Shown: piece by piece, positions 1 through 20,707 of the stretch
How positions within the stretch are numbered: position 1 is the first letter of the stretch
How the letters are laid out: each line of letters begins with the position of its first letter
Source of the DNA: a virus
Reading direction: 5' to 3' (one strand)
IMG/VR virus record: IMGVR_UViG_3300031687_000123
Span: 1-21,643 of that record
Length of the DNA stretch: 21,643 nucleotides
Notes under the pieces: model-generated
What the model was told of the DNA's origin: nothing
What the model saw: only the letters and a program-made list of their open reading frames with translations
Databases searched by the model: none
Program-made: the position numbers and the translations under genes

Positions 1-36
1 GACAACGTGACTTTGAACTTTAATAAGGAAGACTAA
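1..36 (+). CDS. Possible 3' end of an upstream late gene
   Basis: The first bases probably hold the end of a gene that lies mostly outside the window. Two readings are possible. One frame ends at TAA 21-23 (last residues QRDFEL), just before the AAGGAAG ribosome-binding site of the next gene, which matches the spacing of other junctions here. Another frame stays open from base 1 to TAA 34-36 and would overlap the next ATG as TAATG. The sequence is too short to choose or to name a product; by position a capsid or head protein is possible. Confidence 0.3.
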   Translation, partial: DNVTLNFNKED

Positions 37-1643
37 TGTTAGGTTTTAGTGCTTTTTCAGAAACAACCTTTGCCCAAGCTGATGGTAGTGGTGCGGGTTT
101 TGCAGATGTTTCTACTACACTAGTACAGACAGGTGTAGGATCTATTTCTGTTGTTGCAGAAGCTTCTTTTGTACCCTCCTCACTTCAAGTACAAACAGTT
201 GCATCCACCCTTTCTGCAGATGCAAATAGCCAATTTAATTTAGCATCAATAGTCGCTTCTATAAGTACACCTTCTTTAGTTACTTCAGCCAAAGCAAATA
301 AAGCCACACCTTCAGTATCCTCTGCACTTTCTGTCTCTGTTCCAACACTAAATGCTAAAGCAAATAACACTGTAGTTTCTATATTAGGTTCTTTTGCTAA
401 TCCAAATATTGACATTGATGCAGAAGCAAGTATAACTACAGGTAGTGTTACAGCATCTGTAGAAAAAGGGATAATTTCTTCATTTGGTAAAGCAAATGTT
501 ACTCCTAGTTCTCTTCTTTTATCTGCAGCTTATGACTCAAATACTTTTGTTGAATATTTAATAACTGTCGCTACTGACTACTATGGAGCAAATAAATATT
601 ATGTAGACTCTGTTCTTCAGCAACAACTTTATTTGCAAGAAGGACAAACTTATAGATTTGATCAGTCTAACTCTTCCAATTCAGGTCATAATTTAAAGTT
701 TTCTACAACAGCAAACGGCACTCATGCAAGTGGAAGTGAATACACAACTGGTGTTGTTTATGTAGGAACTCCCGGAAGTGCAGGTGCATACACTGAAATA
801 ACTGTAGCTACTGGCGCACCAAGACTATATTATTATTGTATTAATCACTCAGGCATGGGTGGAACAGCTTATACACCATCAGCAGGAACTATTAGTCTTA
901 CTATAACTGTAGCAAACACAGGCTCAGGAAACAAGTACTACATAGATGGTACTTATGCTTATCCAACAATAAGTTTAACAGAAGGTTCAACATATAGGTT
1001 TGATCAATCACCGCCTACAAATGCAGGGCATCCGTTAAGACTTTCGACTACTTCTGGTGGTACTCATTTAGGTGGAAGTGAATACACAACTGGTGTTACG
1101 AAAGTTGGAACTCCAGGACAAGTTGGTGCGTATACTGAAATTGTAGTTGCTAATAACGCACCAACCTTATATTATTACTGTTTCTATCACTCAGGAATGG
1201 GTGGTCAACTAAATACCCCAGCAATTACTACGCTTGTTACAGAAACAGGATTAATAGCTTCTGTTAAAGGTTCTGCACCTGTAATTGGCTTAGTTGGCGT
1301 AATAAACAATGAAGAACTAGAAGCAAAAGGTGGAGCAAGTTTAACTCCAACAAGTTTACTTTTATCTAGTGGTTTAAATAATTTTGCAGATGAGGATGCA
1401 GAAGCTTCAGTTATACTCGCCAGTTTAAGAGGTTCATTTATAACTGAACTAAGTAATCCTACTGCAGTACAGTTCCCTTACCAAAACTTTGCAAATGACT
1501 ACAGCAGACAAAGAACCTTATTTTTAGTAACTGCTGACACAAATAACACAGTACACGTACCTGCAGACCCTCATAATAGAACTGTATTCATACAGTCTAC
1601 AGCTTCTGATGCAGGTAATAGGACTATAAAAATAGCCGCATAA
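36..1643 (+). CDS. Virion repeat protein with two cupredoxin-like domains
   Basis: A 535-residue probable structural protein at the start of the tail module. Residues about 35-165 are Ala/Ser/Val-rich degenerate repeats of roughly 20-25 residues, marked by AEAS/AKAN and TPSSLLLS-like motifs. Residues 176-403 are two tandem domains of exactly 114 residues each. Each has a His in a GH(N/P)L(K/R) context (His218, His332) and a Y-Y-Y-C-x2-H-x2-M motif (Cys268/His271/Met274; Cys382/His385/Met388). This is the ligand set of type 1 copper cupredoxins, with the C-x2-H-x2-M spacing of amicyanin. After the pair the first repeat type returns (TPTSLLLSSG), so the cupredoxin pair looks inserted into the repeat array. 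The start is supported by AAGGAAG at 25-31. The fold and virion role are inferred; whether metal is bound is unknown. It could be a fibre, a decoration protein or a vertex protein. Confidence 0.7.
   Translation: MLGFSAFSETTFAQADGSGAGFADVSTTLVQTGVGSISVVAEASFVPSSLQVQTVASTLSADANSQFNLASIVASISTPSLVTSAKANKATPSVSSALSVSVPTLNAKANNTVVSILGSFANPNIDIDAEASITTGSVTASVEKGIISSFGKANVTPSSLLLSAAYDSNTFVEYLITVATDYYGANKYYVDSVLQQQLYLQEGQTYRFDQSNSSNSGHNLKFSTTANGTHASGSEYTTGVVYVGTPGSAGAYTEITVATGAPRLYYYCINHSGMGGTAYTPSAGTISLTITVANTGSGNKYYIDGTYAYPTISLTEGSTYRFDQSPPTNAGHPLRLSTTSGGTHLGGSEYTTGVTKVGTPGQVGAYTEIVVANNAPTLYYYCFYHSGMGGQLNTPAITTLVTETGLIASVKGSAPVIGLVGVINNEELEAKGGASLTPTSLLLSSGLNNFADEDAEASVILASLRGSFITELSNPTAVQFPYQNFANDYSRQRTLFLVTADTNNTVHVPADPHNRTVFIQSTASDAGNRTIKIAA
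561..1244 (+). repeat. Two in-frame tandem 342-base repeats
   Basis: Two tandem units, 561-902 and 903-1244, encode the two cupredoxin-like domains of the 535-residue protein. The offset is exactly 342 bases (114 codons) for every landmark residue. A 25-base stretch is identical in both copies (731-755 and 1073-1097), although the rest has diverged. This suggests an old domain duplication, with the identical stretch either conserved or kept alike by gene conversion. Confidence 0.85.
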
Positions 1644-4225: not shown

Positions 4226-6070
4226 ATGGCAGGTTATACACGCACGGATACAGCAAATAATATTGCTAATGGTAACGTTATTAATGCAAATGACATAGAT
4301 GCAGAGTACAACGCTGTTGAAGCGGCCTTTAATGCTTCTTCTGGTCACAAGCACGATGGTACGGCTGCAGAAGGTGCCCCTATTACTAGAGTTGGCCCAG
4401 CAGCAGACCTCATTGTAAGCGGCTCCTCTGTTTTACCTAAGACAGGAAATACCCTAGACTTAGGCTCTAATGGTGTTCAGTTTAAAGACGCTTACTTTGA
4501 TGGGGTTTTGTATGCTGATTCTTCTAGACATGGTGTTAATGGTCTTACTAGTATTGCTGATAATGTTTATGCGGTATCCTCTGGTGGCTTTACTCTTGAT
4601 GTTGATGGGGATATTACTCTTGATCCAACTGGTCTTGACGTTATATTAGCTACTACAGGAACTCCTTATGGTGCTTTAACTAACACCAATAATAACCTTA
4701 CAATTAAGTCTGGAACAACTACAGCTATAACTCTTACAGGAGCTAATGCGGCACTAGCAGGTACGCTAGGCGTGGCAGGCAATTCCACTATAGGTGGAAC
4801 GCTAGGTGTGACAGGGGCTATTACAGGTGCTTTAACTGGTAACGCTTCTACTGCATCTGCTTTATCTGCTACTCGTACAATTACTCTTGGAGGAGATTTA
4901 AACGGAACTATAAACTTCAATGGCTCTCAGGATGTATCAGTTACTGTAGGCGTGAACGATGATAGTCACAACCACACTCAAGCTAATGTAGACGGATTAG
5001 TATCGGCTCTTTCATCTATAAACAGTACAAATAGTAGCCAACAAAGTTCTATATCTAGCATAAACAGTACTCTTGGTGGTAAAGTAGCTAATACACGCAA
5101 CATATCTGCAGGAGCAGGACTTGCAGGTGGAGGAAATTTAGCTGCAGATAGAACTATTTCTCATGCCGATACGTCTAGCCAAGGTTCTGTAGATAACAGC
5201 GGTCAATCTTTTATACAAGATATTACTTTAGATACTTATGGGCATATTACATCTATATCGTCAGCTACTGCATCAGGTGGTAGTAGTGGTCTTGCAGGGG
5301 ATGGTACTGAAGCGGCTTCATTCACTACTCTAGAAGGTAATTTTATTCGGCGGGTAAACAACGCCGCACCTTCAATAAAAGCTGATGCTTTAAGTAATAC
5401 TCAAGCTGAAACACCTTTTATGTTAGGTTCGTTTGGTAGTGGCTATTTCGTGCCAAAATCTACTGGCAGCAATGGAACAGGAATAACCTATAACAACGGC
5501 ACTGGTAATTTAAAAATATTAAGTGGTAGTTTAAATGTTGCGGTGAATCAAACAGGTGGCATTTTAAGAAACGGAAATGACCATCAGATTTTCTTTATGG
5601 ATGATGCACAAAGTAATGGCGGCGCAGGAAACAAAGAAATTAGATTTAAGGTTTCAGGTAATAACTTTATAAGTATGAATATTGAAGCACAAAGAGTGTA
5701 CTTCAGAGTGCCAATAAAAGTAGACCAAGTAAGTAGTACAGCCATTGGTGTAGATACAACAGGAATTGTTAGGGGTGTAAGCTTTAGTTCTACTTCAGAC
5801 TATAGACTTAAAGAAAACGTGGACTACACTTGGGATGCTACAACTCGTTTAAAGCAACTTAAACCAGCACGTTATAACTGGATTTCAGATGAAACTAATA
5901 CTTTAGTAGATGGTTTTATTGCACATGAAGTAGGTACTGTACTACCTGATGCTGTTCATGGAGCTAAAGATGGCGAGGAGATGCAGTCATTAGATTACTC
6001 TAAGATAATCCCTCTATTAGTTAAAACTGTACAAGAGTTAGAAGCTCGTATTGTAGCCTTAGAAGCATAA
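4226..6070 (+). CDS. Tail fibre with C-terminal S74 chaperone
   Basis: A 614-residue trimeric-fibre-type protein. The N-terminus (GYTRTDTANNIANG, then an AEYNAVEAAFNAS helix) is a common virion-attachment start in marine phages. The middle is Gly/Thr/Asn/Ser-rich, with TLGVTGAITG-like units, a Ser/Ile coiled segment (residues about 255-280) and one H-x-H motif (His248, His250) like those binding metal in long fibres. Residues from about 523 are an intramolecular chaperone of peptidase family S74: Ser524-Asp-x-Arg-Leu-Lys529-Glu-Asn carries the Ser/Lys dyad with the family's five-residue spacing, followed by PARYNW, GFIAHEV and a C-terminal coiled coil (LVKTVQELEARIVALEA). Self-cleavage is expected just before Ser524 after trimer folding. 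The protein probably recognises the host surface. AAGGA precedes the start. Confidence 0.85.
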   Translation: MAGYTRTDTANNIANGNVINANDIDAEYNAVEAAFNASSGHKHDGTAAEGAPITRVGPAADLIVSGSSVLPKTGNTLDLGSNGVQFKDAYFDGVLYADSSRHGVNGLTSIADNVYAVSSGGFTLDVDGDITLDPTGLDVILATTGTPYGALTNTNNNLTIKSGTTTAITLTGANAALAGTLGVAGNSTIGGTLGVTGAITGALTGNASTASALSATRTITLGGDLNGTINFNGSQDVSVTVGVNDDSHNHTQANVDGLVSALSSINSTNSSQQSSISSINSTLGGKVANTRNISAGAGLAGGGNLAADRTISHADTSSQGSVDNSGQSFIQDITLDTYGHITSISSATASGGSSGLAGDGTEAASFTTLEGNFIRRVNNAAPSIKADALSNTQAETPFMLGSFGSGYFVPKSTGSNGTGITYNNGTGNLKILSGSLNVAVNQTGGILRNGNDHQIFFMDDAQSNGGAGNKEIRFKVSGNNFISMNIEAQRVYFRVPIKVDQVSSTAIGVDTTGIVRGVSFSSTSDYRLKENVDYTWDATTRLKQLKPARYNWISDETNTLVDGFIAHEVGTVLPDAVHGAKDGEEMQSLDYSKIIPLLVKTVQELEARIVALEA

Positions 6071-11627: not shown

Positions 11628-12983
11628 ATGAGTTTTTTAGAAGATTTAGCGGGATCATTTCTAAACCGTGTAAATAAAGAGATGGATGTTAGGTCAGATA
11701 AAGCTGATGAAAGAGTTGAAGAGCAAGAAGATCTAGCTCGACAAAACTTAGCTGACGTAAAAATCCGTGGAAGAAGGGCTACTGAGGCTACAAAGCTTGC
11801 CTATAAGGCGAAGACTTTAGGTGCTAATGATGACCAAATAGCCGCCGCTATGAGTAGTGGCATGGCTGGGATTGCTGATTTTGTCAACCTGTTAGAGACT
11901 GCTCGTAGTGATATGAGTGGCGGTGAACTAGGCCAAGATGATATAAGCGCGTTAATTGATCTTCAGGGCATACCCGATATGGAGTATGGAACGTATGAAG
12001 AGATGGCGAACACAGTGTATGGGGCTAACAAAACAGAACCTACAGAAATGGCAGAGATTCCTGGTTGGGCTAAAATTCTAGGTCTTTCAGCAGATGAAGA
12101 AGCTAAACGGGAATTGGCAAGTACACCATTTGCAAGCGGCTACACTGTCCAACAGATTAATGATATGGCAGCAGAACCAGATTACCAAGGTCTTCCGGGT
12201 TTAGAGTCAACTACCATGACATACAAAAAGCTCCCAAGAATGGGCAGTGAAAAAGGTATGGAATGGAGCATTAAGCTAGGCGATGATATTACTAGTATGC
12301 GTGACGAAGATGCTTACAAGAAACTATTTAAAACCGCCAAAAATGAAATACAGCTACTAATGGAGCAAGATCCTCCTGTAGATCCAGAAGAAATTGCCGC
12401 CAAGAAAGCTGAACTAAAAGCTCGTACTGGTAAGTATATTAGAGACAGGATTGATGTAGCGGTGAGAGCTACTGCAGATGTGTACAAAACTACCTTCTTT
12501 AAAAACGGATCTGTAATAAGCCTTTTTGATAACTTAATACAAGAGGGTGTATATTCTGAGGCAGACATAGCAGAAATGACTAGGGGATTAATTGAGCCAG
12601 AGGCAGAAAACCCAGATTTAAATGACCCTAGAATTGTTACAAAAACGGAAGAGACAGGTGCGGTGCCAGAAGAAAAAGCGCCTGTTATAGCAACTCCACC
12701 AGAAGGTATTCCGGGAGTCTTAGTCCACGGCAAGAAGTATAAAGGAAAGTATGAATCAAAAGGCAAATCAAAAGATGGCGTAGCAATAATGGAGCCTATT
12801 TTGGTAGACCCAAGACCGCCTGAAGATGAAGTAGTAGAAGAAAGAAGAATAGCCTCTGGTAGAATAGTAAAAGTATTCCCTTATCAAGAGTGGAATAAAA
12901 AATATGGGGATACACACGATCCACTTACAGGGTATCCCTTACCCATACCTGGCCTAGAGAAATATTTTGGAGTTGAGGAATAA
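11628..12983 (+). CDS. Unknown late protein, probably virion-associated
   Basis: A 451-residue hydrophilic protein that I do not recognise by family. The N-terminal third is helical and charged (FLEDLAGSFLNRVNKEMDVR, then DERVEEQEDLARQNLADV), suggesting a coiled coil. The middle has alternating charged helices, and residues about 345-420 are Pro/Glu/Lys-rich and probably disordered. The C-terminus (VFPYQEWNKKYGDTHDPLTG) is a short aromatic-rich motif that could be a docking segment. No membrane segment or catalytic motif is visible. It lies immediately before the 1161-residue protein, the place where short-tailed phages commonly keep internal core or ejection proteins, so that role is suggested by context only. 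Confidence 0.5.
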   Translation: MSFLEDLAGSFLNRVNKEMDVRSDKADERVEEQEDLARQNLADVKIRGRRATEATKLAYKAKTLGANDDQIAAAMSSGMAGIADFVNLLETARSDMSGGELGQDDISALIDLQGIPDMEYGTYEEMANTVYGANKTEPTEMAEIPGWAKILGLSADEEAKRELASTPFASGYTVQQINDMAAEPDYQGLPGLESTTMTYKKLPRMGSEKGMEWSIKLGDDITSMRDEDAYKKLFKTAKNEIQLLMEQDPPVDPEEIAAKKAELKARTGKYIRDRIDVAVRATADVYKTTFFKNGSVISLFDNLIQEGVYSEADIAEMTRGLIEPEAENPDLNDPRIVTKTEETGAVPEEKAPVIATPPEGIPGVLVHGKKYKGKYESKGKSKDGVAIMEPILVDPRPPEDEVVEERRIASGRIVKVFPYQEWNKKYGDTHDPLTGYPLPIPGLEKYFGVEE

Positions 12984-12987
12984 TATA

Positions 12988-15900
12988 ATGGGTATTTTTG
13001 AAGATCAATTTGACAACGAAATGGGATCAGTTGATCCTGAAACCTCAGAAACAGGACAACCTTTTAATATTGATAAGAGTGTTACTTTAAAGAAAGACGA
13101 TCTTCTAAAGTATCAGCACCTCACGCCTATCAAGCAGTATATGATAGAAAGGAAAGGTGTAGACTACAAAGACAAACCTGATGAGCAGGTAGTAGATGAT
13201 TTTGTAGAACACATGCGCTTCTTTAATACCAATGTAGTATCTACTGCAGGGGAAGCTCGTTTTGTTTCTAAAGCTACTTCTAAACAAAAGGCTATAGCGA
13301 ATAAAGCTTACCAAACATATGAACAATTAGGCAACGTCTTTGTAAATGACGGCTTCTTTGGGGCTGTTAAAGGTGTAGGGCAGTACATAGAAGCGGCTGC
13401 CAAAGACCCCACAAACTATATAGGCATTGCTACAGGTGGTGCGGCTAGATTGGCAGCAGCAGGAACTCAGATTGGTGGCAAGCAAGTTGTTAAAGCCGCT
13501 GTTAGGGCTGCAGGGCGAAACTCTATACGCGATGGACTTACTAAAGCTGCGGCTAAAAAGAAGGCTAATGAAGTGGCTGTAGAAGCGGCGTCTAGGTTTG
13601 TAGCTGCAGGAGCCTCTAAGAAATCTGCAGGTAAAGTATTTGAAAAAGTGGCTAAGGAGGGTAATTATCTTTTTAGGAAAGCTGCTTTTGAAACTGCAAG
13701 GAAAGAGGCTCAAGAAAAACTTTTTAAGTCAGCTACCAAGAAAGGACTTGTGGCGGCTACAATATCTGATTCCGCATTTGCTGTATTTCAGGATGTAGAG
13801 TATCAAAATGTTTTGCTTGATGTAGGCGCACAGGAAGAATACTCCGCTATGCAAACTGGTTTTGCTACTGTTTTTGGCGCTGTAGGAGGTGGTGCCGCTT
13901 TAGCCGCTACTAAGTTTAAAGGTAAGTCAGGTTTAGTCGCAATATCACCAGACGGAAAAGTAACAAAAGATATTTTAGAAAAATACAAAGTTCCTGTGTC
14001 TAAGGCAGATGCTAATAAAATATCTAAGCAGTTGGCTAAGGATGTAGATGATTGGGCTGTTAAAGTGCAACAAGGAACAGAACTCTCTGCGGCTGCAATG
14101 CCTGTAGACTTAGTTAAAAGTATATTCTTAGGCGCTGATGGCAAAGGAGGTTTAGCTAAAGCTTATAAAGACATAGGCATGCCAATGACTGACGAAAAGC
14201 ATATTACAGATTACGCTACAAATATTGCAATGCTATTAGACCCTAAAGAATTAAAAAGAATTAATAAAATAATAGAACCTCTGGCAGGGTTTACTCTTGG
14301 AGAAATGGCAGACAACAGAACAATAGCCTCTGTTTTAGCAAGAACAATGTCTGACAGTGGTAAAAATCTTAATGTTGCTGGTCAATTTAAGAAGATGATA
14401 AATATGGGTTTAATGAGTACAGATTCAAAAGTAAATGCTTTGGTTGAATCTGGCAATACTCTAATTGAGGGCGAAGCTAAAAAGCTTAATTCCAATAAAC
14501 TTGCATATGCTCAGTCTGTGTGGAAAAGACTTCTAGTTTCTTCTCCTCAAACAACTGCACTGAACGTTGTAGGCTTTGGTCAATTTGCGATAGGCTCCAC
14601 TTTTGCTGACATATTGAATGGCGGTAGGTACATGGGGTTAGGATTAGCGCAAGGAGGTATGACCACTGAAGCAGGAACAGAGAGCCTTAGAAAAGGAAAG
14701 GCTTTGCTTGCGCTACAGTATCAAAAGATGAAAAACTTTGCAGATCCGTATACTACTTCAGAAGCTTACATGTCAATTTTAGAATCGGAACCAGAGATTT
14801 CTAAGAAGTTAATGCAGACTATCACAGGTGGTATTGAGGCTACATCAGAAAAATATAAAATAGATCCTAACAGTAAAGTTTACAAGTCTTTAGAAGCTTT
14901 CACTACGGCTGCAAACCAGCTTACGGGTGTTCGTATACAAGATAACTGGACAAAATCTCAGATGTATATGTCTGAATTAGATAAAGCAATTAGGCTTACT
15001 GACAATGAGGCTCTAAGAGGCGTGTACAAAGACGGAACTACTCTTAAACAACTCTTACAAGATGGCAATACTAATTTAATATCTGAAGATATGGCTAACT
15101 ATGCATTAGGTAATACCTTAGAATCTGTATTCTCTAAAAATTATACAGTAGCAAAGCCTGGCAGTGGCATAGCAGGTGAATCCTTATCAGGTCTGGCACA
15201 GTTAGTTGAGAAATTTTCTAACACACCTATACTGGGAACCATTCTACCTTTCGGAAGATTTTTTAATAACGTAGTTGCGTCCTCTTACAAGTGGAGTCCT
15301 TTAGCTTATGGCGGTATAGGCATGAGTATGGCATCTAAGATTGCAAAGAGATCTAAGGGAGAGGGAGTTGATTTAGCTGCAGGGGAAGCTTTCTCTCGCG
15401 CTACTGTAGGAACAACCGCTTTATGGAGCTTGGCAGAGGCAGATAAAGGGCGAAGAGAAAAAGGGTTAGCTTATTATGAAGTAGAAGGGGATGGCGGCAC
15501 TATCATAGACGTTAAAAATACTTTCCCGTTATCTATGTACTTGGCTATAGGAAGAGTAATGAGGTTGCGTATGGATGATGAGCCTATACCTCCTGAACTA
15601 CAGTTAGACGCATTGGCGCAACTTGCTGTAGGTCAACTTGCAAAGGATGCTCAGTTTGGAAATGATCTTCTAAACATTATGGATGTAATTTCTAATGCAG
15701 GAGTAGATGGAGCAAGAGGGCCAGACTACAAAGCTATAGGAAAGATAACAGGTAATGTTTTAGCAGGCGTAACTAGGCCGTTAGATGCTATCAACAGAAC
15801 TGTTGGTTTCGTACTTGAGAATGATGTGGCTAAAGATGTACGCCAAGCTCAAAGCGGTGGCGCTGTGTTTACGCAGTCCTCAACTAAATATATGGATAAT

Positions 15901-16473
15901 ATAATAGAAGCTTTCATTGGTAAGTCAGAAACATTAACAGGAAAAGAGTTGCGGGTGGCTACCAGAGAAGGAGATGTATATGATGCAAACCCTTTTGCAA
16001 GGCTGTTTGGTGTCAATGTTAAGCAAGGACGTACTGCTACAGAAAAAGCTTACTCAATGGCAGAGATGCATGCATGGAAAGCTAGTGAGCGAACCAAGAT
16101 GCCTGCGTATGACAGGATGCTCAATGAGGTACTAGCACCTACTCTAGAAAGAAATACACAGAGACTTATAAGCTCTAATAAATTTAAGAAAGCAGGTCTT
16201 ACTGAGCGAAGGTCTATGTTAAAAAGTATGCTTAAAGAAGTAAAGAAAGCTGCTCGTACAGATGCAGGAGATGGATCTCTTGGTGCTAATAATCAGAGAC
16301 TTCGACTTGCTAACTTAGCTAGTAAGAAGGGCACAAAAGAGATACGGCGTGAAGCTCTAGGGTTTATGAAAAGACGATATAGCATAGACTCGCCCTTAGA
16401 GGAATTTAGTTTTACAGAGTTGGATGTATTCATAGACTTTGTGGATGCATTAGAAGATAATTATCAGCTATAA
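12988..16473 (+). CDS. Very large probable internal virion (DNA ejection) protein
   Basis: An 1161-residue protein, the longest in the window and the last of the plus-strand module. I chose ATG 12988, preceded by GAGGAA at a suitable distance; a TTG 21 bases upstream extends the frame but overlaps the previous stop. Residues about 120-260 are Ala/Lys-rich amphipathic helices. Hydrophobic Gly/Ala-rich stretches occur near residues 291-310 (FGAVGGGAALAATKF) and 524-545 (ALNVVGFGQFAIGSTFADIL), which could insert in a membrane. The C-terminal 150 residues are highly basic and helical. Size, composition and position at the end of the virion genes match T7 gp16-like ejection proteins and other large multi-domain phage proteins. 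I see no lytic transglycosylase or protease motif I can defend, so the function is an inference. Confidence 0.6.
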   Translation: MGIFEDQFDNEMGSVDPETSETGQPFNIDKSVTLKKDDLLKYQHLTPIKQYMIERKGVDYKDKPDEQVVDDFVEHMRFFNTNVVSTAGEARFVSKATSKQKAIANKAYQTYEQLGNVFVNDGFFGAVKGVGQYIEAAAKDPTNYIGIATGGAARLAAAGTQIGGKQVVKAAVRAAGRNSIRDGLTKAAAKKKANEVAVEAASRFVAAGASKKSAGKVFEKVAKEGNYLFRKAAFETARKEAQEKLFKSATKKGLVAATISDSAFAVFQDVEYQNVLLDVGAQEEYSAMQTGFATVFGAVGGGAALAATKFKGKSGLVAISPDGKVTKDILEKYKVPVSKADANKISKQLAKDVDDWAVKVQQGTELSAAAMPVDLVKSIFLGADGKGGLAKAYKDIGMPMTDEKHITDYATNIAMLLDPKELKRINKIIEPLAGFTLGEMADNRTIASVLARTMSDSGKNLNVAGQFKKMINMGLMSTDSKVNALVESGNTLIEGEAKKLNSNKLAYAQSVWKRLLVSSPQTTALNVVGFGQFAIGSTFADILNGGRYMGLGLAQGGMTTEAGTESLRKGKALLALQYQKMKNFADPYTTSEAYMSILESEPEISKKLMQTITGGIEATSEKYKIDPNSKVYKSLEAFTTAANQLTGVRIQDNWTKSQMYMSELDKAIRLTDNEALRGVYKDGTTLKQLLQDGNTNLISEDMANYALGNTLESVFSKNYTVAKPGSGIAGESLSGLAQLVEKFSNTPILGTILPFGRFFNNVVASSYKWSPLAYGGIGMSMASKIAKRSKGEGVDLAAGEAFSRATVGTTALWSLAEADKGRREKGLAYYEVEGDGGTIIDVKNTFPLSMYLAIGRVMRLRMDDEPIPPELQLDALAQLAVGQLAKDAQFGNDLLNIMDVISNAGVDGARGPDYKAIGKITGNVLAGVTRPLDAINRTVGFVLENDVAKDVRQAQSGGAVFTQSSTKYMDNIIEAFIGKSETLTGKELRVATREGDVYDANPFARLFGVNVKQGRTATEKAYSMAEMHAWKASERTKMPAYDRMLNEVLAPTLERNTQRLISSNKFKKAGLTERRSMLKSMLKEVKKAARTDAGDGSLGANNQRLRLANLASKKGTKEIRREALGFMKRRYSIDSPLEEFSFTELDVFIDFVDALEDNYQL

Positions 16474-16733: not shown

Positions 16734-16946
16734 TTATTTAGAGGGGGCGCTTTTGCGCCTCTTTCTTTTTTCTAACTTCCAGAGAATATAGAATAGAACT
16801 ATAAGCGCAGGTTGCAAAAGTATAAATATAATAATGTTGGCTAGATAATAACCATGTCCAAACTCTCCTGGATTTCCTCCTATTACTTGCAGTATATAAA
16901 CGCAGACATTAAAAATGTTAGATATAAGTATCTCAAATTCGGTCAT
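16734..16946 (-). CDS. Two-helix membrane protein with basic tail
   Basis: A 70-residue protein when started at ATG 16946, which is preceded by AAAGGAATACCC; an ATG eight codons earlier has no ribosome-binding site and overlaps the upstream gene. It has two hydrophobic segments, about residues 5-24 (EILISNIFNVCVYILQVIGG) and 35-57 (LANIIIFILLQPALIVLFYI), linked by a short GNPGEFGHGYY turn, and a strongly basic C-terminus (KLEKRKRRKSAPSK). This hairpin with a cationic cytoplasmic tail is the topology of class II holins, but similar proteins of unknown function occur in marine phages. The plus-strand terminator hairpin lies inside its 3' end. Confidence 0.65.
   Translation of the reverse strand: MTEFEILISNIFNVCVYILQVIGGNPGEFGHGYYLANIIIFILLQPALIVLFYILWKLEKRKRRKSAPSK
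16741..16771 (+). terminator. Intrinsic terminator for the plus-strand late transcript
   Basis: On the plus strand 16741-16750 pairs with 16755-16764 (10 pairs, of which 3 are G-U or end pairs) around a TTTT loop with a GCGC core, followed by a run of six T at 16066+700, that is 16766-16771. The minus-strand reading has no T tract after the stem. It lies about 270 bases beyond the last plus-strand stop codon, inside the end of an opposing gene. Confidence 0.7.
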
Positions 16947-16956
16947 GGGTATTCCT

Positions 16957-17160
16957 TTATTTATGTCCAAACCTATCCACAGAGTGTTTAGTCCATAGTA
17001 GTGCAGACTGTAAGTGTATTAGGCTCTGATCTCTTTCGTGACAAGTCCAGCACTTATCATTAATAAATCTTTCTAGATCTCTGAACTTAGACTCGGCTTC
17101 TTTATTAAATTTATCTGATTTGATTTGCATATGAACTTTAGCTTCATTTTCAATCTTCAT
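16957..17160 (-). CDS. Acb2/Tad1 hairpin-like protein, possible anti-defence nucleotide sponge
   Basis: A 67-residue helical protein. Residues about 18-37 (FNKEAESKFRDLERFINDKC) form a first helix; a short turn with Cys37 and Cys40 follows; residues about 42-62 form a second helix (ERDQSLIHLQSALLWTKHSV). The pattern of a charged helix, a turn, then S-R-E-x-(S/A)-L-A-L-T-x-L-E-(E/Q)-A-x-x-W-A is what I remember of the small phage family that includes Acb2 and the related hairpin of Tad1. Those proteins bind cyclic nucleotide or cyclic ADP-ribose signals and thereby blunt CBASS or Thoeris defences. Here the key positions appear as E-R-D-Q-S-L-x-x-L-Q-x-A-x-x-W. It is shorter than Acb2 (about 90 residues), lacking an N-terminal part. 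GAGG upstream supports ATG 17160. Family placement is moderately sure; binding activity is untested inference. Confidence 0.5.
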   Translation of the reverse strand: MKIENEAKVHMQIKSDKFNKEAESKFRDLERFINDKCWTCHERDQSLIHLQSALLWTKHSVDRFGHK

Positions 17161-17172
17161 TTTTTTACCTCA

Positions 17173-17742
17173 TTAGAAGTTGAAGTTAGCTTGTCGTGGT
17201 GCTTCCTGTATTTCTTTTTTAAGAGTGCGGCGTTGTTCATCTAAGTTGTCCAGTATTGTTATAGCTTGTTGGGCTGTTATTTTAAACCACTCTCCTAGTC
17301 GTTGTCTTCCACCATAAGTCTCTGCGGTCTTGTGTGCCTCACGTTCTGCTTTGTGACGGTCTTCAAAGTAAACAGAATGAACTAACTTATAGTCTCGCAT
17401 AGGAGAACTTGTCTGGTATCCATTCAGTCGATCTTCTGCATCAATAGCTTTGCCAATCTTTACCCACTCAGGCCATGCGTCATTCACAATTGCATAGACA
17501 TGCCCTGACTTCTCATTGTCGTACATCGCCTTGGCAAAGATACCAATATCCTTTGGGTTCATCTTGTTAAAAACGAGGAGGCCGATATTACCACCTTGTT
17601 GTAAGTAACCGCTAAGTGTTCTGTACTTACGCTTGTAATACACAAGCCCTTCTTCGTTTAGGTGATGATTAACGCCCATCTTGCGCCACGTAAACCCATC
17701 CCAACGTTTTCCATCTCCACGAATTGCACCATTCTCTGCCAT
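17173..17742 (-). CDS. GIY-YIG superfamily protein (T5orf172/MUG113 type)
   Basis: A 189-residue protein. Residues about 80-160 carry the T5orf172/MUG113 variant of the GIY-YIG nuclease fold: HVYAI (81-85), VKIGKA (94-99), Arg105 in DRLNGYQTSSP, Glu134 with His137 in the following helix, and GEWFKI (150-155). The N-terminal 75 residues hold Trp-, Lys- and Tyr-rich sequence (GKRWDGFTWRKMG, VYYKRKYR) that may bind DNA. The C-terminal 25 residues are a charged helix. Proteins with this domain include putative phage nucleases and free-standing homing endonucleases; here it lies just after the reductase gene and a tiny peptide gene, a place where homing endonucleases often sit. Activity and target are not known from sequence. 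The start ATG 17742 has only a weak AGAGAG upstream. Confidence 0.7.
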   Translation of the reverse strand: MAENGAIRGDGKRWDGFTWRKMGVNHHLNEEGLVYYKRKYRTLSGYLQQGGNIGLLVFNKMNPKDIGIFAKAMYDNEKSGHVYAIVNDAWPEWVKIGKAIDAEDRLNGYQTSSPMRDYKLVHSVYFEDRHKAEREAHKTAETYGGRQRLGEWFKITAQQAITILDNLDEQRRTLKKEIQEAPRQANFNF

Positions 17743-17938: not shown

Positions 17939-19867
17939 TTAAGTTAAGTCTACGATTTCACAGGAATCTCCAGAGCATGCTAGTGTCTGGCTCCCTGCAG
18001 TATTGTCTTCCTTTTCGTACTCAGCAAAACTATCCCAGTCAATACTATCAGGCATAATTTCTAACAGCATTTGGTAATCTTTTTTGCTGCAATCCTGATA
18101 GGGTGCTTGTTGATAGGTATGCTCGTTGAATGGTAAGAAAGAAACCCCACTCATTTCGTCAAAATGCTCGTACACAAAAGCTCCTACAGAAAGCCATTCG
18201 TCTGGGCGTACATTGCAAGTTATGCTTGGTTTGTGTTCACACCAATGTCGTTGATACATTAGCCACATCTTCAGTTGATCTAGCGCAGAAACATCTTGAG
18301 TGCATATTGCGCCTGCAGGAGCCATCTGTGGAAAGCTAAACACTACAGTAGTATCAGGCTTCATCACACAAGGCTGGTTTGGTATTTTCTGATCCTTCAT
18401 AAATTGAGTTAAAGGATCTTTAATGTCACCCCTAACAGTACGAATGTAATAGGGGGAATGACGAGGGTGAATGCCACTGCTAGATGATACCAATTGAGAT
18501 ACCGTTCCTGATGGTTTAACTGTAGTGATAGCAGTAGAAACAGGGATGCCAAGGCGCTCAGACCACTCAGCGTTAGTGAGGACAGCAATAGAACGTAGAT
18601 GCTCAAGTGTTTTCTCCAATCCTGCGTTTTTGTTTGTAAGTAAAGCGTTGTCCATTATCCCTGTGAGTGACACACCCAACAGGCGTTCTTCTTCTGTATT
18701 TCGCACCCACATCTTTCGCAGATAGGGGAACTTAGTGTAGGTAGATTGGATTGTACCCAATATTGTAGCGAAGCGAACTTTTCTTTCAAGATCTGCGATA
18801 CCATCTGTTGCACGTACTACTACCTCCGTTAGATTACACACTTGGCCTGATCGTAAAATTATCTCGCTACAAGGGTTGCAGCCGAACTCATAGGTTGAAT
18901 CACGCCGCCCATTCTTAGCCGCTTGCTTCTGTGAAGCTTCTCTGTTGAAGATACCACGCTCACCAGAACCTGACTCAACTAAAGACATCCACTCACGCAT
19001 GAAAGATACACTATCAGGCTTTTCAGTGTAGCAAACAGAGTTGTTAGCTAACGCCCTTTGAGGCTCATTGGCCCACCACTTGCCAGACTTAGCATGGCGC
19101 ATCTTATCATCTTCTAAATTACTCAGTGATATCATAGCACTACGGCGAACACCGCCTACGACTACTACTTCACCAATCTTACACATAATGTCATGGCACT
19201 CAATAGAAGTTAACTGCCTGCCTTGTGCATTTTTAAAAGATGCAATGGTGAAGTTAAAGAGGTCTATTAGTGGCGCTGGGCCTGATGCCCTACCTCCAAA
19301 TGTTTTAAGCCTAGCACCTGCAGGGCGAACTCTACTGGTATCCCAAGTAGGGATTTCACCGCTGTACAATAGTGCAATAAGTTGACGTAGTGACTTAGAC
19401 CAACCTTCTTTGCTATCCTTGACTACAATATTAGTTTCGCTTTCAAATAGCGTAGGTACTTCGGGAAGCTTCTCTGTGTATTGGCGCTCCACACTGAAGC
19501 CAACGCCTGTTCCACACATAAGTATGTGCATTGCCTCATCAAATGCCACGATATTATCTACAGCTAAATAAGAGCAGTTGTACATTGAAATATTATCGCG
19601 CTCTGCCGCTTTTCCTGCAACCATCAATGAGCGCATACTAGGCATAACTTCTAAACCTAAGATAGCCTGCTCAATATCCTTAATGTAGGAATCGTTGCCA
19701 GCTAAGGGGCGTACTACATTATCCATATAACGTGATACTGTTTCAGCCCAAGTTTCCCTGCGCCCTTCTTTGTCTAGCCAACGCGCATAGCGTGACTTGT
19801 GTATAAAGGTTTGGTAATCTGTAGGCAGATGGTTATCACCTGCTTTAATTGTTTTTTTCTTATTCAT
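17939..19867 (-). CDS. nrdJ: Class II (B12-dependent) ribonucleotide reductase
   Basis: A 642-residue adenosylcobalamin-dependent enzyme that reduces ribonucleotides to deoxyribonucleotides in the cytoplasm without oxygen or a second subunit. It resembles the monomeric Lactobacillus leichmannii type. Cys98 in YNCSY and Cys344 in QVCNL match the redox pair (Cys119/Cys419 there). Cys333 and Glu335 in NPCSE match thiyl Cys408 and Glu410, with the same 11-residue gap to the second redox Cys. C-terminal Cys631-x4-Cys636 matches the Cys731/Cys736 shuttle. KPSGTVSQLVSSSSGIHPRHSPYYIR is the nucleotide-binding region. It is about 100 residues shorter than the lactobacillar enzyme; 54 of these are lost between Cys98 and Cys333, the side where the allosteric insertion lies. 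No ATP cone is seen. The start overlaps the MazG stop as ATGA. All catalytic residues appear present. Confidence 0.93.
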   Translation of the reverse strand: MNKKKTIKAGDNHLPTDYQTFIHKSRYARWLDKEGRRETWAETVSRYMDNVVRPLAGNDSYIKDIEQAILGLEVMPSMRSLMVAGKAAERDNISMYNCSYLAVDNIVAFDEAMHILMCGTGVGFSVERQYTEKLPEVPTLFESETNIVVKDSKEGWSKSLRQLIALLYSGEIPTWDTSRVRPAGARLKTFGGRASGPAPLIDLFNFTIASFKNAQGRQLTSIECHDIMCKIGEVVVVGGVRRSAMISLSNLEDDKMRHAKSGKWWANEPQRALANNSVCYTEKPDSVSFMREWMSLVESGSGERGIFNREASQKQAAKNGRRDSTYEFGCNPCSEIILRSGQVCNLTEVVVRATDGIADLERKVRFATILGTIQSTYTKFPYLRKMWVRNTEEERLLGVSLTGIMDNALLTNKNAGLEKTLEHLRSIAVLTNAEWSERLGIPVSTAITTVKPSGTVSQLVSSSSGIHPRHSPYYIRTVRGDIKDPLTQFMKDQKIPNQPCVMKPDTTVVFSFPQMAPAGAICTQDVSALDQLKMWLMYQRHWCEHKPSITCNVRPDEWLSVGAFVYEHFDEMSGVSFLPFNEHTYQQAPYQDCSKKDYQMLLEIMPDSIDWDSFAEYEKEDNTAGSQTLACSGDSCEIVDLT

Positions 19868-20244
19868 CGGTCATCTCCTGATCCCTGCAATACGCCACGT
19901 AATTGTCTATCATTTAATTTCTTTATATTCATTTCTGCTACTGTTTGTAAAGAACCTCCATAAAAGTTTGCAAGAGCAGCAACATAAAATAAAACATCTC
20001 CTAGTTCTTTTAAGCTACCTTCCTTGTCAAACAAAGAGTAATCCCTAAGTGACTTCTTTAGTTTTTCTGCCAGTTCCCCTGCCTCTCCTACAAGGCCAAG
20101 AGTGTTCTCTATTTGACGGGTGCGCCCTTTTGTAAGGATCTTACCTTCTACCCACTGTGAATAAGCGGCCAGGTCATTCTTAGGTGTGCCATCTTTATTG
20201 AACACATCAAAGTAAGCTTTATCTGATAGCTCTTGTTCATTCAT
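19864..20244 (-). CDS. mazG: MazG-like nucleoside triphosphate pyrophosphohydrolase
   Basis: A 126-residue all-alpha NTP pyrophosphohydrolase. GLVGEAGELAEKLKK supplies Glu54-x2-Glu57 and LKELGDVLFY supplies Glu80-x2-Asp83, the ExxE...ExxD magnesium site of the MazG superfamily. Single-domain length fits phage MazG rather than the two-domain bacterial enzyme. The family hydrolyses (d)NTPs to monophosphates; in phages it is discussed as cleaning damaged or host-type nucleotides or altering ppGpp signalling. AAGGAG lies upstream of its ATG, and it is coupled by ATGA overlaps to both the 59-residue gene before it and nrdJ after it, linking it to nucleotide supply. Confidence 0.88.
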   Translation of the reverse strand: MNEQELSDKAYFDVFNKDGTPKNDLAAYSQWVEGKILTKGRTRQIENTLGLVGEAGELAEKLKKSLRDYSLFDKEGSLKELGDVLFYVAALANFYGGSLQTVAEMNIKKLNDRQLRGVLQGSGDDR

Positions 20245-20420
20245 GTATTTCTCTCCTTCACTATTAAGTTAGTCACTGACACATCGTCTATATCATAAAC
20301 TGTGTCAACTAGCATATCATGTATATCTTCTGAGTGAGATTGTTCATGTGATCCTAGTATGTTATTTTCTTCATACACTTCTAAATTACAGGATATGCTA
20401 AAGCTTTTCTTTTTGCTCAT
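20241..20420 (-). CDS. Unrecognised 59-residue acidic protein
   Basis: A short open frame: ATG at 20420, stop TGA at 20243-20241. The product starts with a basic MSKKKSFSISCNLEVYEENN, has a His/Ser/Asp-rich middle (SHEQSHSEDIHDMLVDTVYD) and an acidic IDDVSV segment before NLIVKERNT. It is not recognised as a family. It shares 4-base ATGA overlaps with DUF3310 upstream and mazG downstream, and GGAG lies eight bases before its start, which strongly supports its being a real gene. The N-terminus and predicted strand-helix-strand pattern suggest a small soluble protein. Confidence 0.7.
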   Translation of the reverse strand: MSKKKSFSISCNLEVYEENNILGSHEQSHSEDIHDMLVDTVYDIDDVSVTNLIVKERNT

Positions 20421-20707
20421 CGATGCTTCTCCGCTAAAACTTGGTTCATCTTATTTAAATACCATTCTGCTTTCTGCATATCTTCTGCAGGCTTTTGCTT
20501 AAAGCGATACCTGTGCTGGTACTTGATCATATTGCCGTGGCAGTAAGCTATAAACCCTTCGACACCTAAAACCTGTTTAATGTAGTCTATACACTCTATA
20601 CCACCCATATTGTAGTGGGCTGGTTTATTAACAGGGTCAAACTCAGCCTTTAGGTGCTGTACATTTTCTTTCTTCTTTTTTCGGGTAAACGTAACCAAGT
20701 TTTTCAT
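20417..20707 (-). CDS. DUF3310 protein, related to part of T7 gp1.7
   Basis: A 96-residue protein. Residues about 26-88 carry the DUF3310 signature: VNKPAHYNMGGIECID, then FIAYCHGNMIKYQHRYRFK and a PAEDMQKAEWYLNKM helix. The domain is widespread in phages and occurs in T7 gp1.7, a nucleoside monophosphate kinase; the isolated domain has no settled function. The first 25 residues are Lys-rich. Its location between endonuclease I and MazG/RNR fits nucleotide metabolism. GAGG before the ATG and 4-base overlaps on both sides support the boundaries. Confidence 0.85.
   Translation of the reverse strand: MKNLVTFTRKKKKENVQHLKAEFDPVNKPAHYNMGGIECIDYIKQVLGVEGFIAYCHGNMIKYQHRYRFKQKPAEDMQKAEWYLNKMNQVLAEKHR

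Follow-up and report, generated by a model that had tools for sequence, protein, structure and literature searches.

A divergent Acb2/Tad1-type hairpin protein in the operon-terminal slot of a marine phage

We found that a 67-residue protein encoded in a viral contig of 21,643 nucleotides (positions 1 to 21,643 of IMG/VR record IMGVR_UViG_3300031687_000123, the whole of which was analysed and is here called the window) is an Acb2/Tad1-hairpin homologue that can be filed neither as Acb2 nor as Tad1. With moderate confidence, we regard it as a divergent member of the Acb2/Tad1 superfamily, composed of a leader belonging to its genomic slot and a hairpin, and most likely acting as an oligomeric sponge of a host nucleotide immune signal.

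The gene and its homology to the Acb2/Tad1 hairpin domain

16957..17160, minus strand: gene of the 67-residue hairpin protein, an ATG-started open frame with a GAGG site, purifying selection and homologues
17168..17171, minus strand: Shine-Dalgarno-like GAGG site, read directly from the sequence
16966..17100, minus strand: Acb2/Tad1-type helical hairpin, residues 21-65, from hhalign, PF24729 and PHROG 1454 matches and predicted helices

The open frame, which begins 12 nt past the stop of the preceding gene, is a genuine gene on which purifying selection acts: compared with relatives whose proteins are 84% and 75% identical to it (NG86), its dN of 0.09 and 0.13 is low against a dS of 0.52 and 0.94, respectively. 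Homologues were recovered by tblastn and pattern scans from more than 30 viral contigs and three roseophage isolates. IMG/VR contigs L001-L005 carry the gene, L001 as a fragment 100% identical to the window protein; roseophage CRP-207 gp38 is a relative with 36% identity, and through CRP-207 we reached relatives in CRP-2, CRP-603 and 23 further contigs. CRP-207, CRP-2 and CRP-603 are HMO-2011-type roseophages, one of the most abundant marine phage groups known (PMC9038755), and gene order and relatives suggest that the window belongs to the same group. The bacterial genomes scanned gave no relatives and hence no prophage copies, and the genes of the clade are annotated only as hypothetical proteins.

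The individual tests on the window protein are each weak, and the case for homology is one made by its family. Alone, the protein has no significant match in Pfam, NCBIfam or the PDB and only a chance-level match in PHROGs. PF24729 ("Acb2/Tad1, hairpin domain") was matched by 13 of 17 clade members, all below its cut-off (CRP-207 gp38 and the L002 protein included), and no other Pfam family recurs among the 17. The best clade score was 17.2 bits as compared with a cut-off of 27 bits. This value is set by curation and is not in itself a biological feature, but by Pfam's rule the window protein, itself unmatched, cannot be filed as PF24729. PHROG 1454, the PHROG of the compact actinophage hairpins (5.8e-29), was matched by 16 of the 17 (best 6.3e-07). 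The positive control, T4 Acb2 (Vs.4), matched PF24729 at 7.1e-20 and is also picked up by PHROG 1454.

When the clade was aligned with PF24729-type proteins by hhalign, probabilities of 91.5-95.7% were obtained across residues 21-65, with scores of 40.5-49.8 as against a best shuffled score of 16.2; reversed and 200 column-shuffled profiles gave probabilities of at most 1.2%. A search of 7,385 ORFs with the clade profile ranked its own 44 members at the top and 59 PF24729-type ORFs next, a run first broken by the MazG of CRP-345, which was matched in residues 1-16 (the leader) only. The reverse profile, made from PF24729-type proteins with zero clade members included, recovered every clade ORF above all unrelated ORFs of the same set; the window ORF ranked 115th of 7,385 with 19.1 bits (E 4.4e-4), the first ORF lacking the motif scored 7.4 bits, and the single interloper just under the clade was an ORF of contig L132 that has an S-R-E-R-S-L...W motif of its own and lies beside a hairpin gene. 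Among 177,635 PDB sequences, the clade-only profile gave six matches up to E 10, all of them Tad1 (E 0.16-0.90) and none an Acb2 chain, and a profile enlarged with canonical members gave "Acb2 homolog 43" (9ptq, 2.1e-09), six Tad1 sequences and Vs.4. By these comparisons of sequence families, homology of residues 21-65 to the Acb2/Tad1 hairpin domain is established. The preliminary description of this DNA had placed the protein in the Acb2/Tad1 family by its E-R-D-Q-S-L-x-x-L-Q-x-A-x-x-W core; the core is present, its resemblance exceeds chance in the reverse profile, and the placement is upheld by the reciprocal profiles, hhalign and both family libraries, with the proviso that a profile match was obtained through the clade and not for the window protein alone.

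The leader and its operon-terminal slot

17107..17160, minus strand: N-terminal leader, residues 1-18, common to the slot MazGs of sister phages by N-terminus pattern, matrix and DNA similarity
17173..17742, minus strand: T5orf172/MUG113 (GIY-YIG-like) domain protein, just upstream (PF13455 9.1e-11, PF10544 3.7e-10)
17939..19867, minus strand: class II (B12-dependent) ribonucleotide reductase, RNR (PHROG 367 3.7e-179)
19864..20244, minus strand: MazG pyrophosphohydrolase of a different lineage, leaderless (PF03819 2.6e-09)
20417-20707: DUF3310 protein, "nucleotide kinase" in PHROGs (PF11753 7.1e-22)
16734..16946, minus strand: putative membrane protein of ~70 residues, downstream and co-directional (hydrophobic stretch; homologous ORF in L013)
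12967..16473, plus strand: convergent large structural-region gene bounding the slot (1168-residue ORF)

The hairpin gene is the last or nearly the last of its operon and usually overlaps the preceding gene by 4 bp; in most relatives a convergent large structural-region gene lies 23-48 bp away, an arrangement seen in 27 clade loci, and the hairpin gene of the window and that of L013 are each succeeded by two further small ORFs in the same direction. In relatives (L013, L014, L006 and L009 compared), endonuclease VII or PhoH stands in place of the upstream gene, such swapping between phages being what is expected of mobile nuclease genes. The window RNR gene has 71-72% DNA identity to those of CRP-345 and ICBM2, and with class II RNR, MazG, DUF3310 and endonuclease I all nearby, the nucleotide-metabolism setting described earlier was correctly recognised. 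Elsewhere in the window, positions 4226-6070 appear by eye to encode a tail-fibre-like protein whose C-terminus resembles an S74 peptidase (DYRLKENV motif).

In HMO-2011, CRP-1 and CRP-345, the operon slot of the hairpin gene is occupied by a MazG, and these three MazGs start with MNKLEQEASNWMKERY, MNKLKEEAEQFLKEKY and MKLEEEAKKYMENKY. Hairpin proteins open with M-x-[LI]-E-x-E-A-x-x-[FH], and the leader as a whole reads M-x-[LI]-E-x-E-A-x-x-[FH]-...-[KR]-x-x-x-F; MazGs from other slots, among them the window's own, do not start with it. The pattern occurred in 35 of 8,201 distinct Met N-termini, every one a slot hairpin or a slot-lineage MazG, and a matrix drawn from the hairpin leaders alone placed the three isolate MazGs directly under the hairpins among 5,329 N-termini. 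Hairpin and slot MazG leaders are also alike in DNA (CTAGAG-AAGAGGC). Among the 70 MazG loci with enough sequence, the leader was present in 16/16 with a convergent neighbour as against 1/54 of the others; the strict pattern had missed slot MazGs starting MNKLQDEA and the relaxed pattern was chosen after this was seen, so the Fisher p for this contrast is descriptive only, and because the slot MazGs are one lineage by descent the link of leader to slot is effectively one association. The leader of ~16 residues common to slot MazGs and hairpins was noted for L138:1495-1878, L137:~1495-1875, L008:2597-2956 (minus strand) and window 17107-17160, and for CRP-1 the GenBank annotation seems to place the MazG start too far downstream.

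The simplest reading of these N-termini is an exchange of bodies that left the 5' segment in place. Such an exchange would account for the start of Acb2 homology at residue 21 and for the missing pocket lid described below; the leader common to hairpin and MazG would then be a tangible example of a gene in which the 5' end is conserved and the body replaced. One could go further and envision the fixed leader as a functional module, serving for instance for docking to a common partner or for assembly, and carrying an exchangeable body that is either a MazG nucleotide hydrolase or an Acb2/Tad1 hairpin, with hydrolysis and sequestration of a nucleotide signal set in one place, but we consider this extension quite unlikely.

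Predicted fold and proposed function

The AlphaFold2 monomer model has helices at residues 2-36 and 41-64 (mean pLDDT 93), in agreement with the two-helix pattern read from the letters, and a canonical compact family member modelled as a control has helices at 2-7, 16-39 and 44-66. Acb2 itself is arranged as one short and two long helices (PMC12043709). In its predicted form the fold is Acb2-like in part: the hairpin is kept, and the model has neither the short N-terminal helix nor the loop that contribute to the cyclic-dinucleotide pocket, so that the canonical N-terminal pocket element is predicted to have been lost. The longer N-terminus that the preliminary description found lacking is indeed absent relative to T4 Acb2 (88 residues), but compactness is the family norm, with about 80 compact PF24729-type proteins spanning 62-81 residues. 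The two-cysteine feature of the turn was not confirmed: among the nearest homologues C37 is retained but position 40 is Ser in all except L001, and CRP-type proteins have neither cysteine. A metal site at C37/C40 was ruled out by this lack of conservation of C40. The "compact signal sponge" first proposed is supported only in part: the hairpin homology stands, but the size is ordinary, C40 is variable and the N-terminal pocket element is predicted to be absent.

T4 Acb2 binds cyclic dinucleotides through Y8, H11, K23, R79 and F82 (PMC10097602). For Y8, H11 and F82 the window protein offers no clear equivalent (they align with H10, I and D62, the N-terminal alignment being uncertain), K23 is gapped, and R79 corresponds to H59, which is R in CRP-type members. 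T68, at which the substitution T68M weakens T4 Acb2 binding (PMC12657230), corresponds to I48; L002 has T at this position and L004 has M. Position 10 is aromatic or His in all 17 clade members (14 F, 3 H), and this residue may conceivably take the place of Y8. The Arg beside the conserved Glu in canonical hairpins, PaP2 Acb2 and Tad1 is replaced in the clade by H, Q, G, E, D, F or T. As the stacking residues and, by prediction, the pocket lid are missing, a ligand would probably be bound otherwise than in T4 Acb2. Residues E6, A7, F18, E42, L50, W56, G65 and K67 are kept in 17/17 clade members; G65 and K67 sit at the hairpin's open end, the part where Acb2 and Tad1 bind their ligands together with terminal elements (PMC12043709). 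The T4 Acb2 hexamer is made by L29, A66, A73 and A77 (PMC10097602), the last three of which correspond to S46, A53 and T57, all small residues, as is usual across the family (in relatives A or S, V or A, and A or S, respectively); L29 could not be aligned.

Fold searches with the model gave Foldseek E-values all above 1 and VIA-align Z-scores all below 8, values that are typical of helical hairpins. Residues 21-67 of the model align weakly with residues 65-118 of CmTad1 in the homologous register (Z 5.3, rmsd 3.0). A match to T4 Vs.4 (Z 7.2) aligns 12..76 at 3% identity and out of the homologous register, and was not used. Because the canonical control gave equally weak statistics, the fold search decides nothing in either direction.

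In the mechanism that we envision, a leader helix (~1-18) derived from the operon-terminal slot of HMO-2011-type phages would be joined to an Acb2/Tad1-type hairpin (21-65) in a protein probably made early in infection; the hairpins would assemble into an oligomer by way of the second helix, at its face of small residues, and this assembly would sequester a host nucleotide immune signal rather than degrade it, thereby acting against host defence. The sponge role, which is plausible, draws on the family (Acb2 and Tad1), on the small residues at the aligned interface positions and on an RyR-hairpin fusion that we found unannotated in the roseophage Sulfitobacter phage phiCB2047-B (L011:2575-3141; PF02026 3.3e-10, PF24729 5.4e-08). 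Among phage RyR proteins, which bind cADPR signals or degrade them, is one of a Ruegeria phage (PMC13232231), and RyR-like matches lie within 1.5 kb of the hairpin in 4 of 80 canonical loci. By extension, CBASS or Thoeris pressure on the host may be conjectured. If it does function as a sponge, the Acb2/Tad1 family would reach into abundant ocean phages in a form whose pocket is assembled from other parts, and the protein would offer a direct probe of the nucleotide-signalling defences used by marine Roseobacter.

Alternatively, and possibly though on the unlikely side, the protein may be a former sponge whose oligomeric hairpin has become a scaffold or regulator of the phage's enzymes of nucleotide metabolism (RNR, MazG) and whose leader serves as a docking helix. 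RNR lies nearby in 37 of 43 clade loci and PhoH in 33, hairpins adjoin ThyX, RNR-II or MazG in Gordonia phage Remus and Mycobacterium phage Pharaoh, and both the loss of the known Acb2 pocket residues and the leader common to hairpins and slot MazGs would fit such a role. However, a nucleotide-metabolism neighbour was found in only 8 of 80 canonical hairpin loci, which indicates no general link between the family and nucleotide metabolism, and the clade loci come from one phage group, so their linkage may reflect shared descent only. Across other phages we noted hairpin genes beside ThyX, RNR or MazG (some actinophages) or beside portal and capsid genes, all annotated as hypothetical (L051 1375-1620, L053 1426-1635, L052 1378-1620 and L056 1480-1776). 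In L132, a second ORF (~1676-1865, frame +2) with an S-R-E-R-S-L...A-E-L-W motif directly follows a canonical hairpin gene, possibly as a tandem pair.

A variant of the sponge proposal, in which the activity is anti-Thoeris rather than anti-CBASS and the ligand is of the cyclic ADP-ribose type as for Tad1, would explain why the PDB matches of the clade-only profile are Tad1 sequences with no Acb2 chain among them, and is consistent with the register of the CmTad1 alignment and with the RyR fusion; we judge it unlikely, as those Tad1 matches are individually insignificant and the N-terminal beta-sheet domain of Tad1 (PMC12043709) is absent. That the protein is an unrelated two-helix coiled coil with an Acb2-like motif by chance is very improbable: its lack of significant matches when taken alone and its Foldseek values are what a generic hairpin would give, but reciprocal profiles, shuffles and two independent family libraries contradict it, and the equal weakness of the canonical control marks the structural result as a limit of the method. 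Least credible of all is a degenerate MazG, suggested by the leader and slot common to MazG in sister phages and by MazG-like DR2231 among the weak fold matches, because PF03819 matches none of the 17 clade members, whose sole recurrent Pfam match is PF24729, and the CRP-345 MazG resembles the clade in its leader residues alone.

Comparison with known hairpins and slot proteins

The nearest known systems are the compact actinophage PF24729/PHROG 1454 hairpins, with "Acb2 homolog 43" as a solved relative, which are like the window protein in size and have in common with it a core of conserved Glu, Leu, Ala/Val and Trp. They differ in that a short helix, an FxFH loop and two helices take the place of its predicted continuous first helix (2-36), and in their GREK...T motif, of which GR and T are not retained. 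With T4 Acb2 and Pseudomonas phage Acb2, the window protein shares the second-helix motif around L, A and W, and it has small residues at the positions aligned with A66, A73 and A77 of the hexamer interface; it is 21 residues shorter than T4 Acb2 and, by prediction, lacks the N-terminal lid. The C-terminal hairpin of Tad1 is in the same register, but Tad1 carries an N-terminal antiparallel beta-sheet domain (PMC12043709), whereas the model of the 67-residue protein is all helical. Finally, the operon-terminal MazG of HMO-2011, CRP-1 and CRP-345 has the same genomic slot and the same type of first ~16 residues as the window protein, followed by an unlike body, that of a MazG pyrophosphohydrolase.
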